The notes under the pieces were generated by a model. That model made no database searches. It worked only from the letters and a program-made list of their open reading frames with translations, and was not told the DNA's origin. Shown here piece by piece: positions 34,623-38,777 of a stretch of DNA of 64,000 nt. Within the stretch, counting starts at the first letter, position 1. Each line of letters opens with the position of its first letter. Location: positions 1,289,102 through 1,353,101 of the forward strand of contig NZ_BMJA01000001.1 in NCBI RefSeq assembly GCF_014642835.1. Direction: 5' to 3'. Made by a program: the position numbers and the translations under genes. Source of the DNA: Dyella nitratireducens. Its GTDB lineage: Bacteria > Pseudomonadota > Gammaproteobacteria > Xanthomonadales > Rhodanobacteraceae.

Positions 34623-35687
34623 TCACTGCGAAGCGCTGAGCTTGAACTCGATGCGCTTCTGCTGCTGCGAGGCGATCGCCGCTCCGTCGCGCATCGCCGG
34701 CGAGAACTTGGCACGACGCAATGCATCGATGGCGGCGTTGTCGAACACGTGCCGCGGCTCAGCGCTGACTACCGTGATGTTGCTGACGCTGCCGTCTGTG
34801 TTGACCGTGTATTGCACATCCACCCAACCTTCCTGGTTGTTGCGCAGCGCCGTGGCAGGATAGCGCGGACGGATGGAGGAGATCGGGATAGCGTCGCGCG
34901 TCTCGCCGCCGCCAGCCGACGCATTCGCGCTGGCCACCTGGCTGTTTGGTGTGGCCGCGCTCGTCTGCGTCTGCGTGGCCTGTTCTTGCTTGACCTTCTG
35001 CTGCTGGGCCGCCAGCGCCGCCTGCTGTTGCGCCGCCTTGTCGGCCGCCGCCTTATCAGCGAGCGCCTTGTCCGCCGTAGCTTTGTCGACTGCCGCCTTC
35101 TGTGCCGCCAACTCGGCCTGGTGCTGCTGGTCGAGCTGTTTCTGCTGTTCCTGGTCGAGCGTCTTGCGCTGGGCATCCAGCTTGGAACGCAGAATGGTCA
35201 GCGTGTAGTTGGTGGGGTCGACCTTGGCCAGCAGGTTGATCTCGCGCTCGGCTTCGTCGAACTCGCGCTGGTTGATGACCTGCTCGACGTTGCTGGCGGC
35301 AAACGGGAACGTTTCGCGCAGGGCATCCGCCGCCACCTGGTTGCCGGGCTGCTTCTGCAACACCTTGAGGTAGAACTCGAAAGCGTTGTTGCCAGCCGGC
35401 GCGATGACGCGCTGCTGGTTCATCGCCTTGCGCGCTTCCGACAAGAGATCGTTGATGCTCAATGCATCCACGTTCACCGGCGGCGCCGCGGCCTGTTGCT
35501 GGCCAAGGTTGACCGGTGTGGATGGGTGCCCGCCTGAGTCCGCGGTCAACAAGTCTTCATGAGGCTTGATGATGAGGAACCAGGACACGACAGCGAGACC
35601 TGCAACGACGGCAAGTATCGCGATGATGACGGGCTTGATAGCCCCGCGCGCAAGCGAGCGCGCATGACGACTGTTTCGGGTATCCAT
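34623..35687 (-). CDS. TonB C-terminal domain protein with coiled-coil linker
   Basis: A 354-residue envelope protein. It has one N-terminal transmembrane helix (about 20-40), a periplasmic helical region, an Ala/Lys/Gln-rich coiled coil near 165-235 and a C-terminal TonB domain (about 270-350) with IRPRYPATALRNNQEGWVDV and a VVSAEP.HVFDNAAIDALRR segment. TonB domains couple the proton motive force, through ExbB/ExbD, to outer-membrane receptors; no exbB or exbD is adjacent. The low-complexity linker is TolA-like, so a TolA-type role is also possible. The ATG at 35687 is the first Met. Confidence 0.82.
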   Translation of the reverse strand: MDTRNSRHARSLARGAIKPVIIAILAVVAGLAVVSWFLIIKPHEDLLTADSGGHPSTPVNLGQQQAAAPPVNVDALSINDLLSEARKAMNQQRVIAPAGNNAFEFYLKVLQKQPGNQVAADALRETFPFAASNVEQVINQREFDEAEREINLLAKVDPTNYTLTILRSKLDAQRKTLDQEQQKQLDQQHQAELAAQKAAVDKATADKALADKAAADKAAQQQAALAAQQQKVKQEQATQTQTSAATPNSQVASANASAGGGETRDAIPISSIRPRYPATALRNNQEGWVDVQYTVNTDGSVSNITVVSAEPRHVFDNAAIDALRRAKFSPAMRDGAAIASQQQKRIEFKLSASQ

Positions 35688-35972
35688 GATCTTTCACTAC
35701 TGCAGTGGCATTAGATACCCGCGCTTCCCCCCTGTTATCCAGGAGCGGCTCCCCAAGTCGCCGCGGCGCGGATGGACCAAAGGTATCGCGATTGGGTCGA
35801 CACAGCAAATGTGGGGCATGTCACGAACACCCGCGAGGCGGGCTGTATGGACAGCGGGGGATTGCCGGGACAACCCGCAAGCCCTGTCCATGTCATTTTC
35901 GAAGGGTCGAGAACGTGCTGGGTCGAGAACACGCTCATCTCATTGTCGAAAATGCGGGACCCCAAAATGAAG
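35688..35972. other. Gap upstream of the TonB gene, with an inverted repeat enclosing two direct repeats
   Basis: No gene is seen in this stretch. CATTTTCGA (35894-35902) and TCGAAAATG (35946-35954) are exact inverted copies that enclose two direct copies of a GGTCGAGAAC motif ending in GCT. Upstream, ATGGACAG and CTGTCCAT also pair across a loop of about 30 bases. Possible structured RNA or regulator site; function unknown. Confidence 0.35.
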
Positions 35973-35995
35973 CGTCCCGGCACGAGGCCGGGACG
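35973..35995 (-). terminator. Terminator-like hairpin after the MetJ-histone gene
   Basis: Nine-base stem (CGTCCCGGC/GCCGGGACG) with a five-base loop, 75 bases downstream of the gene end. On the minus strand it is followed by GCTTCATTTT, so it is a fair but not strong terminator. Confidence 0.6.
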
Positions 35996-36069
35996 AAACG
36001 CTTTCGAACTACCTCCCTGCGCTGGGCACCGCAGGGAGACAAATCGAGTGCAACGTCTAGTTGTTGTGC

Positions 36070-36603
36070 TTACTTCTTGCTGGCCTTGGGGGCCTTGGCG
36101 GCCTTCGTGGCCTTCATGACTTTGGCAGCGGCTGCCTTCTTGGCAGTGCGCTTACGGGTTGCCTTCTTGGCAGCTTTCTTGGCAACGCGCTTGGCAGTTG
36201 CCTTCTTCGCGCCTACGCGCTTGGCACCCGCCTTCTTGGCGGTCTTGCGCGCGGTGCGCTTCTTGGCGGTGGCCTTCTTGGCGACCGGCCGCTTGGCTGC
36301 AGCTTTACGAGTGGTTTTCTTGGCGGCTTTCTTCGCCGACTTACGTGCAGTTTTCTTGGCAGTGGCCATAGTACGTCTTAGCTCCTCATCAGTTGGCAGT
36401 GGTTGCCCAGTAAAAGCGTGGAGGAACGCCTCGACCAGCAAATCGCTGTTCGTGGCGTGCCTCAAATTGTTGACCTGTCGGTAAGTACGGAGATCCGACA
36501 ACAGTCGCAATACGTGCATTGGAATCGAAACAGTGATCTTTCTCACCGCGCCGGCTTTTTCACCGTGATCTACGTAGGGCTTAATGAATTTCGATGCCAC
36601 CAT
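36070..36603 (-). CDS. MetJ repressor domain fused to a histone H1-like basic tail
   Basis: A 177-residue protein read through one unbroken frame. Residues 1-77 are a MetJ homologue: [34 protein letters not shown] and [13 protein letters not shown] match the beta-strand, helix A and helix B of Escherichia coli MetJ. The strand residues that contact the met box (Lys22, Thr24 here) and helix B of the SAM pocket are kept; the C-terminal part of MetJ is missing. From residue 78 the chain becomes a 100-residue Lys/Ala/Arg tail of repeated AKK/TRK/AKR, as in histone H1-like nucleoid proteins. ATG at 36603 has GGGGA upstream and a good promoter. It could be a nucleoid protein with a MetJ dimer core, or a true repressor with a DNA-compacting tail. 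Confidence 0.9.
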
Positions 36604-36630
36604 TGGAAACGTTCCCCGTTTATGGTGCGA

Positions 36631-36659
36631 AAGCTATTCCTGAACATTTCAACTGTCAA
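36631..36659 (-). promoter_or_regulatory. Sigma-70-type promoter of the MetJ-histone gene
   Basis: On the minus strand TTGACA (36654-36659) and TAGCTT (36631-36636) are separated by 17 bases. The -35 is perfect and the -10 is modest. The predicted start gives a leader of about 20 bases containing GGGGA before the ATG. No convincing AGACGTCT met box was found here. Confidence 0.6.
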
Positions 36660-37132
36660 TTGATTTTTGCCATGAAATCAATCCCTTCGCCTCCGCGACC
36701 TGTCGACCACGCGGTCGGGAGGATGGTATTTCGATGACCTAATGCAATGTAATCAGCCGTCCAAACATTCAAGGAATTCGCTTCGCGCGTTTTTAGAAAA
36801 GGGCCAAAAACAAGCTAAAAATGTGATTTTTCTCATTGGCGCTGATACACGCATGGTGCCCATGCAAGCTGTGCAGCCATGCGATGCAACGCGCCGTTCC
36901 GACTGCCCGAAAGGGCGATCCGGGAGCATGAACGAATTTAGACTGGGAGGCGCCCGAGTCGGTGCCGGAAACGATCCGGAACATCCCCAACACCCTCGAA
37001 GCACTCCATCGCGACCTGCCATCGCATACATGCGATGAGTGCTCACTCAGTCCGTCGCAACGTCCACCATGCATCTTCTTCACATCGCACGCCGCGCTCT
37101 TGCGGCGGTGGCTACACATACCGCTGACATGA
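36660..37132. other. Intergenic region without a recognised gene
   Basis: This stretch between the MetJ-histone promoter and the gcvH terminator contains only short, family-less frames. A GCCGC/GCGGC hairpin lies at about 37090-37107. Nothing else could be supported. Confidence 0.5.
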
Positions 37133-37178: not shown

Positions 37179-37580
37179 TCAGTGATCTTCGTTCTCGATC
37201 AGTTCGGCGTAGGCGTCGGCGTCGAGCAGCTCATCCAACTCGCCACGGTCGCTGGCCTTCACCACGAACAACCAGCCCTCGCCGTAAGCGTCTTCGTTGA
37301 TGGTTTCGGGCTTGTCGGCAAGGGCATCGTTCACTTCGACGACTTCACCGGACACCGGTGAATAGATGTCGGAGGCGGCTTTCACCGACTCCACCGTCGC
37401 CGCGCCACTGCCGGCCTGCACCTGTGCGCCGACCTCCGGCAATTCGACGTAAACCAGGTCGCCGAGTTGCTCCTGCGCGTGGTTGGAGATGCCCACGCGG
37501 ATCAACCCGTTCTCTTCGACACGGGCCCACTCGTGGGACTTGAGAAATTTCAGATCGCCGGGAATTTCGCTCGCGCTCAT
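37179..37580 (-). CDS. gcvH: Glycine cleavage system H protein
   Basis: A 133-residue lipoyl carrier that moves the aminomethyl group between the P, T and L proteins of glycine cleavage. The lipoylated lysine is Lys67 in [30 protein letters not shown] and the end GEGWLFVVK are typical. Length matches the family. It follows gcvT by 96 bases in the same direction; gcvP is not in the window. Confidence 0.97.
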
Positions 37581-37676: not shown

Positions 37677-38777
37677 TCAGATGCCTTCGCAGGCTTTACC
37701 GTCGCGCACGAACGGGAATTTCACCACGCGCACCGGTACTTCACGGCCACGGATATCGACCCGCACGTTGCCGGTGACGCCCGCAGGAATGCGCGCAAAC
37801 GCCACTGACTTGTTCAAGGTGGGTGCGAAGCTGCCGGAAAGGATTTCCCCTTCACCTTGCGGCGTCAGCACTTTCTGGCCGTGGCGCAGCACGCCTTTTT
37901 CATCCATCACCAGGCCGACCATCGCACGCGGCACACCGGCGCCCTTCTGTGCTTCCAGTGCCTTGCGGCCGATGAAGTCGCGACCTTCATCCAGCGAAAG
38001 GGTCCAGGCCAGACCGGCTTCCCATGGCGTGACGTTTTCGTCCATGTCCTGGCCGTAGAGGTTCATGCCGGCTTCCAAGCGCAGGGTATCGCGCGCACCC
38101 AAGCCGCAGGCAGCGACACCCACTTCAGCTAATGCCTTCCACAAAACCACGGCGTGTTCTTCCGGCAACAAGATCTCGAAACCGTCCTCGCCGGTATAAC
38201 CGGTGCGCGCAATGAATAGCGGCATCCCGTGCGGACCTTGCGCCGCGGCAGCGGCGAAACGGCCAAGCTTTTCGATGCGCGGGCGATCCACCTCGTGCAG
38301 CAGGCCGAGCACCTTGGCACGTGCATTGGGGCCTTGCACGGCGATCATCGCGAAATCGGGGCGTTCTTTCACGGCAACGTCGAACTCTTTTGCCTGCCGT
38401 TCGATCCAGGCCAGATCCTTGTCGCGCGTGGCGGCGTTGACCACCAGGCGGAAGTGTTCGTCACCCAACAGATACACGATCAGGTCGTCGATCACCCCGC
38501 CCTGCTCGTTGAGCATGCAGCTGTACAGCGCCTTGCCCTGCACCTTCAGCTTGTCGACGCTGTTGGCCAGCAGGTGACGCAGGAATTCGCGCGTGCGGGC
38601 GCCATGCAGATCGACCACGGTCATGTGCGACACATCGAACATGCCGGCGTCGCGACGCACGGCGTGGTGTTCTTCGATCTGCGACCCGTAACTGATCGGC
38701 ATATCCCAGCCGCCGAAATCGACCATGCGCGCGCCGAGCTCGCGATGGAGTGCATTGAGGACGGTCTTCTGGGTCAT
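37677..38777 (-). CDS. gcvT: Glycine cleavage system aminomethyltransferase (T protein)
   Basis: A 366-residue folate-dependent enzyme that releases ammonia from the H-protein-bound intermediate and forms methylenetetrahydrofolate. [40 protein letters not shown] and [14 protein letters not shown] are family signatures. ATG at 38777 begins [11 protein letters not shown]; the frame runs ten residues further but without support. It is driven by a clear promoter at 38808-38836 and is followed by gcvH, forming a gcvTH operon. No glycine riboswitch is visible, since the leader is only about 24 bases. Confidence 0.97.

Follow-up and report, generated by a model that had tools for sequence, protein, structure and literature searches.

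The window, that is, the whole stretch of 64,000 nucleotides of a Dyella-like genome analysed here, contains an open reading frame in which a domain of the methionine repressor MetJ runs on into a lysine- and alanine-rich tail reminiscent of histone H1 (Table 1). The locus raises the question of what such a frame encodes: a genuine fusion or an artefact, a methionine repressor or an architectural protein of the nucleoid, one product or two. The author of a preliminary description of this DNA knew of no described protein with this plan, and in the open-access literature searched we found no paper on a MetJ-H1 fusion or on a nested arrangement of the kind discussed below.

Table 1. Coordinates of the fusion gene, its parts and its neighbours in the window
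Feature	Coordinates	Strand	Basis or remark
TonB C-terminal-domain protein	34623..35687	-	Pfam TonB_C 3.9e-20; downstream of the fusion gene, context
MetJ-H1 fusion ORF	36070..36603	-	177 aa, ATG start, stop 36070-36072
MetJ domain, residues 1-78	36370..36603	-	phmmer to 1cma, residue table
Nested H1-like ORF from internal ATG 36367-36369 (Met79), 99 aa	36070..36369	-	initiation predicted
Frozen-codon stretch, codons 63-76, the H1-like 5' leader overlapped by MetJ	36376..36417	-	synonymous-difference comparison
Shine-Dalgarno-like GAGGAG, 12 nt 5' of the internal ATG	36382..36387	-	sequence
Promoter-like TTGACA (36654-36659), 17 bp, TAGCTT (36631-36636)	36631..36659	-	before the fusion gene; putative, read by eye
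gcvH, synteny marker	37179..37580	-	Pfam GCV_H 2.8e-46
gcvT, next gene, same direction	37677..38777	-	Pfam GCV_T 2.5e-89

The MetJ-H1 fusion in Rhodanobacteraceae

Residues 5-82 of the predicted protein match the Pfam MetJ family PF01340 (1.4e-34; 118.4 bits, cut-off 25), the whole protein reaches the NCBIfam MetJ model PRK05264 (122.5 bits, cut-off 110), and a phmmer search aligned residues 4-77 with the E. coli MetJ chains in the PDB (1.7e-30, 74 residues aligned). The DNA-contact strand KITVSIP is present with Lys23 and Thr25 (the E. coli PDB numbering of MetJ equals the residue number plus 1), the residues that read the operator; these positions are KT in 111 of the 111 tabulated loci, a set that includes some species fetched twice. 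The 99 residues of the tail (79-177) comprise 34 Lys, 33 Ala and 9 Arg, with a computed isoelectric point of about 12; this is a Lys/Ala-rich, basic, low-complexity composition of the H1 type, in frame with the predicted ribbon-helix-helix domain, as originally described. Across 103 complete unique proteins of Rhodanobacteraceae (the window's family, f1 below), the tail spans 41 to 310 amino acids, 65-86% of which are Lys, Arg or Ala. The tail of the window protein did not reach the cut-offs of the histone H1-like family HC2 (PF07382; 12.5 bits, cut-off 40) or of the Burkholderia H1-like family NF038053 (11.7 bits, cut-off 80). The PF01340 match stops at profile position 82 of 97, and the region of helix C is absent. 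Thus, the normal MetJ C-terminus is indeed missing from the fusion, but this loss is not peculiar to it because the tail-less MetJ proteins of two other families (f9 and f12) are shortened alike.

The fusion is genuine and family-wide. In an order-wide draw of 398 genomes, 145 matched, 20 of these outside f1; MetJ is present in all 125 sampled f1 genomes, and the 20 match-less genomes listed (in order of kinship, with 233 more match-less genomes beyond them) include none from f1. In a separate draw, MetJ is found in 37 of 37 f1 genomes. Of 190 confirmed relatives, the 80 best are named loci, and these include Dyella, Rhodanobacter, Luteibacter, Frateuria, Fulvimonas and Oleiagrimonas. The frame continues beyond MetJ, free of stops, in 123 of the 125 f1 genomes (137-399 amino acids), the tail residues having been read in 131 f1 loci and the remaining genomes judged by frame length. 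In one of the other two (G386), the gene is interrupted where a contig ends, and its tail continues in frame on a second contig; the remaining genome (G396, locus L324) carries a TGA inside the MetJ domain, with the leader described below, the internal ATG and the tail all intact. The frameshift or sequencing error near 36370 that the preliminary description had named as one possible refutation is therefore discounted, and an origin of the architecture in a frameshift, a chimera or faulty gene calling has a negligible probability, the same architecture recurring across 125 of 125 sampled f1 genomes.

Beyond f1, MetJ came up in 13 f9, 6 f12 and one f8 genome of the order-wide draw. At the loci read (13 of f9 and 2 of f12, leaving aside the f8 genome, which is 60% complete, and 4 f12 genomes), MetJ is short and tail-less and ends at about the same place as the f1 domain. 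A class-wide draw of 369 genomes included 5 with MetJ, two of them f1; the other three gave full-length matches (profile positions 1-96 or 1-97) in frames of 112-118 amino acids. In PMC4239095, no MetJ is listed for its 4 Xanthomonadales genomes, and PMC6230763 reports metJ as missing from X. campestris; by contrast, PMC7270179 states that Xanthomonas seems to have kept the system of E. coli. The string "xanthomonad" has no occurrence in PMC3228920. The range of MetJ is extended here to a family of an order for which PMC4239095 (4 genomes) and PMC6230763 (X. campestris) report absence. At two f12 loci (L112 and L113), the tail-less metJ lies directly 3' of a gene that, by eye, encodes a secretin (GspD-type), and at one of these (L113) it lies about 1.3 kb before gcvH.

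Frozen codons and the stand-alone H1-like gene

At the end of the MetJ domain, synonymous variation is almost absent: the mean pairwise synonymous difference is 0.12 over residues 63-76 (E. coli codons 64-77) versus 0.50 over codons 5-59 (44 sequences less than 90% identical; Mann-Whitney p 1.2e-6). The exact codons ACT (108 of 108), GGG (107 of 108) and AGA (103 of 103) are kept, and the two Glu codons read GAG GAG in 107 and 108 of the 108 unique cores. A 33-nt core of this stretch (36382-36414) recurs, at up to 3 mismatches, in 75 of the 76 f1 genomes and in none of 223 others. The methionine at the junction with the tail is retained in 103 of 104 unique f1 proteins (two more are cut by a contig end); the sole f1 genome without the core (G021, locus L015) also encodes the sole protein of the 104 without the junction methionine. 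An internal ATG and a putative ribosome-binding site are conserved within the frame; the spacing between GAGGAG and the ATG is long, which counts against internal initiation. Other functions of the element were considered and rejected: a small GGCA/UGCC stem is broken in two loci (L003 and L007), and folding energies at the element are at the level of shuffled sequences (z 0.14 and -0.44), indicating no stable RNA structure there; six weak hits to known RNA families in 35900-36900 all fell short of the gathering score and away from the element; and in a divergent set, the five other frames contain no overlapping ORF with a common start or extent.

A search of the window's own genome with the whole protein returned the fusion protein alone, and the HC2 model gave one ORF above the cut-off along with three weaker places. 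That ORF (L238, 1489-2082, plus strand; 41.9 bits against 40) encodes another lysine-rich protein, with MATTRKSAAKK near its start. Because these searches did not reveal the tail elsewhere in the genome, its origin was pursued via synteny, using the stretches around gcvH, a gene detected in 60 of 61 relatives, in 12 genomes outside f1. A lysine-rich ORF was found near gcvH in 3 of 3 f2, 2 of 2 f3, 1 of 1 f6 and 1 of 2 f4 genomes; no stand-alone ORF of this kind was found in the 4 stretches from f5, f7, f8 and f10. Sister families that lack MetJ thus encode a free protein starting with MATKKAAKK near gcvH, and the 5' leader of this gene, ACTGGGC...GAGGAG...ATGGC, is the very sequence that in f1 lies inside the last codons of the MetJ domain. 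Alignment of the leaders, that of f4 left out, with the f1 element shows a shared C, a GGGC-type motif, CACTRAC, GAGGA and ATGGC. The GAGGAG-ATG spacing of the stand-alone f3 and f6 genes, which no other gene overlaps, is 11 nt, in the same class as the 12 nt of f1; leaders from f2 are of different length and contain no CTRAGAC. The preliminary description missed this relationship: the tail is the counterpart of a separate gene of the sister families, the leader and start codon of which are preserved in the fusion frame.

A sequence-only model built on 13 leaders (7 from f1, 3 from f2, 2 from f3 and 1 from f6) matches 162 of 299 genomes, including 76 of 76 f1, 76 of 78 f2, 3 of 3 f3 and 1 of 1 f6, along with weak matches in 3 f9, 2 f12 and 1 f10 genomes; the 13 source leaders match by construction, and the E-values lean on the included f2, f3 and f6 sequences. 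In the window, the match lies at 36353-36423. In 20 of 20 further matches outside f1, hand-picked for different genera among the 86 matched non-f1 genomes (19 f2 and 1 f3), a lysine-rich ORF begins at the predicted ATG.

The frozen codons could also be explained if the tail were made solely as part of the fusion, raising the affinity of MetJ for DNA, with the codons conserved because they form a DNA element, be it a promoter or a binding site, or because a pause at rare codons gives the MetJ domain time to fold ahead of tail synthesis. In 124 of the 125 f1 genomes, no stop separates the MetJ frame from the tail, and a translational pause is possible because the codons of the leader region are mostly rare: in 11 genes of the window, ACT, GGG, CCA, CTA and AGA are minority choices, AGA accounting for 1 of 301 Arg codons. 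However, the conservation extends to the exact codons, beyond rarity, and the same string, GAGGAG and ATGGC included, precedes the stand-alone gene, which is free of any overlapping metJ. We consider this explanation unlikely, although a DNA element may be located there. The reading that we prefer is a nested gene: because the repressor codons still contain what was formerly the start region of the H1-like gene, one gene probably makes two DNA-binding proteins, as judged from the sequence. The genome with a stop inside MetJ and an intact tail (G396) is as expected if the tail is expressed separately; a sequencing error there is possible. The possibility, raised at the outset, that the two parts are translated as separate proteins would then hold for one part: the tail is probably made both ways, its leader and start being kept, but the MetJ domain is always joined to a tail unless it is cleaved.

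The history of the arrangement is a distinct issue. One possibility is that in f1 metJ was placed over the leader and its stop was lost; the other is an older fusion, with metJ having disappeared from the sister families. In the latter scenario, f2, f3 and f6 would have lost the MetJ part, and the leader of their H1-like gene would be a remnant of the metJ 3' end. In the tail-less f12, the codons of MetJ itself already resemble the leader, and because of this resemblance the leader of the MetJ-less families could be a metJ relic; in addition, TNEELRPIMATAKK can be read in frame 5' of the ATG of one f3 gene, and metJ and gcvH are neighbours in one f12 genome, too. Against this stand the lack of a MetJ match among the f2 or f3 genomes listed and the differences of the f2 leaders noted above. 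An ancestral fusion is, in our estimate, somewhat short of an even chance, and it is equally compatible with the nested gene.

MET boxes, the SAM-I riboswitch operon and SAM contacts

The best array of MET boxes in the window's own genome, GGACGTTTAGACGTCTAAACGT, is located immediately 5' of a SAM-I riboswitch (RF00162, 1.4e-17), and the gene 3' of the riboswitch encodes a protein of the alpha/beta-hydrolase fold, which we take to be of the MetX type. The met operon of Xcc, as described in PMC7270179, helps this reading. Because of the position of this array, the regions upstream of the riboswitch were compared across 61 relatives, using all 54 riboswitch rows (38 from 37 f1 genomes and 16 from 14 MetJ-less genomes). 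Tandem MET boxes precede the riboswitch operon at 38 of the 38 f1 sites, the best 16-mer showing 0 (2 sites), 1 (9), 2 (21) or 3 (6) mismatches, and at none of the 16 sites of the MetJ-less genomes, where there are 6 (3 sites), 7 (9) or 8 (4) mismatches; the best of 1080 shuffles had 4. A TTGAC follows the MET boxes within 9 nt at all 38 f1 sites, and at 1 nt in 30 of these, such that a bound repressor would meet the -35 region there. In the f12 genomes of this draw, MetJ is present and the riboswitch was not found.

Genome-wide, 16-mers with up to 3 mismatches are not in excess in the window's own genome (22 sites versus 19 for a reversed control). A stricter pattern, allowing 1 mismatch, gave 40 matches versus 6 for the reversed control in 13 genomes of the genus and 1 versus 2 in 8 genomes of other families. 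Sites with up to 3 mismatches also precede metJ: they occur in 38 of the 109 unique upstream regions, mostly about 170 nt before the start, versus 1 of 1090 shuffles. Autoregulation of metJ is a possibility for the family suggested by these sites; in the group with Leu39 and Tyr42 (see below), just 3 of 20 regions have such a site, and the window's own has 6 mismatches, which is the shuffle level.

Sequence-specific methionine control appears to be retained, then, because MET boxes precede the SAM-I riboswitch operon, and judged by its sites the f1 fusion is still a methionine repressor. The suggestion that a repressor had been turned into an architectural protein does not agree with this. The same suggestion, in the sense that the protein has left methionine control and acts mainly in the nucleoid, could draw on the length and basic composition of the tails across the family, on the altered SAM contacts in the window's genus and on MET-box arrays that lie between convergent gene ends at 7 loci; with operators in front of the riboswitch operon at every f1 site, we regard it as improbable. 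The 7 loci, all from the window's own genus (L147, L222, L224, L227, L228, L231 and L234, the site being near 1501), carry pairs of MET boxes between the 3' ends of convergent genes for a cell-wall hydrolase (Hydrolase_2) and a glycine-zipper protein (Pfam, on L147), which is not a promoter position. In 5 genomes of the genus (L217, L218, L223, L236 and L148), GGACGTCTAGACGTCT-like pairs occur within a coding frame, by eye of the YjeF/Nnr type, and may reflect coding constraint.

In PMC2775130, Glu39 and Arg42 are given as crucial partners of SAM in MetJ, and helix C is stiffened upon SAM binding. The window protein has Leu and Tyr at these positions, and therefore its response to SAM, and that of its genus, is uncertain. 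In the residue table of 111 loci, repeated species included, the pairs at 39/42 are Glu/Arg (44), Leu/His (36), Leu/Tyr (28), Leu/Ser (2) and Glu/His (1). Because these pairs vary and helix C is gone, the response of MetJ to SAM would differ within the family, if it persists at all, and in the window's genus the protein is probably a poorer sensor of SAM. The responsiveness to SAM envisaged in the preliminary description is uncertain for the protein it was proposed for, while 44 loci keep the classical pair.

Proposed mechanism and related systems

The explanation that best accommodates these observations, to which we assign a probability of roughly 0.6, is a nested gene that yields both a MetJ-H1 fusion and a free H1-like protein, with repression through MET boxes. 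In Rhodanobacteraceae, metJ and the gcvH-proximal H1-like gene would share one reading frame; the last codons of the MetJ domain would serve also as the leader and ribosome-binding region of the H1-like gene, the start codon of which is retained as an internal ATG. Ribosomes starting at the first ATG would make the fusion, with a computed mass of about 19 kDa, and those starting at the internal ATG would make the free H1-like protein, of about 10 kDa. A dimer of the fusion would bind the tandem MET boxes that abut the -35-like TTGAC of the met operon and repress it, placing an operon with a SAM-I riboswitch under two layers of control, protein and RNA; in the window's genus, the riboswitch may be left as its main SAM sensor. 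Each dimer would bring two basic tails, which should contribute non-specific affinity for DNA and may bridge or compact the DNA around the operators. We put at even odds a further reading, in which the one frame supplies a sequence-guided chromatin protein, namely the fusion with MET boxes as its seeding points, as well as the free H1-like protein, the ancient leader of the inner gene being embedded in synonymous codons of the repressor.

Compared to E. coli MetJ (PDB 1CMA and 1CMC), the f1 proteins keep Lys23 and Thr25 and have tandem AGACGTCT-type operators before a methionine-linked operon, but the helix C end is replaced by the H1-like tail, Glu39 and Arg42 are changed in the window's genus, and the target operon also contains a SAM-I riboswitch. 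The stand-alone H1-like proteins that offer the closest comparison, presumably of the HC2/AlgP/BpH type, are likewise Lys/Ala-rich, of low complexity and with a MAT-KK start, whereas here such a sequence is joined to MetJ. Among HU proteins, HupB has a lysine-rich tail. Another tailed HU, HupS (PMC11229371), resembles the fusion in combining a folded DNA-binding domain with a basic disordered tail; in the fusion, however, the folded domain is a metabolic, sequence-specific repressor. Genes with two in-frame products, such as those of phage endolysins (PMC9430671), similarly give two proteins from one frame with a common stop. Unlike these, the gene described here is cellular, it would encode two unrelated regulators, with the internal product predicted from sequence, and the leader of the inner gene predates or outlives the fusion in sister families.

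The locus provides a testable case of a gene born inside the frame of another, or of two genes fused with the inner start kept, in which selection is visible as frozen synonymous codons; moreover, one operon carries MetJ-type operators and a SAM-I riboswitch together. Should both products exist, one locus would supply a metabolic repressor together with a nucleoid protein, and how local repressors acquire or shed chromatin functions would become directly testable. If the reading of the fusion as a chromatin protein is correct, methionine/SAM control would be tied to DNA packing across a whole family.

With respect to the surroundings of the gene, a search of viral contigs for a phage or mobile origin gave no confirmed relative (9 stretches fit a pattern, none of which was confirmed). 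Hairpins 3' of the fusion gene give a weak match, the best of the six RNA-family hits mentioned above, to the anti-hemB sRNA (35965-36037, minus strand; 26.5 versus 49.5 bits) and are probably a terminator. Farther along the window, at 42824-64000, the G+C content falls from about 0.61 to 0.47-0.56, and this region contains matches to glycosyltransferases, an acyltransferase, a DegT aminotransferase, a sulfotransferase and a nucleotidyl transferase, along with an APS kinase fused to an EF-Tu-like GTPase domain; we read it as a surface-polysaccharide cluster that includes sulfation genes.
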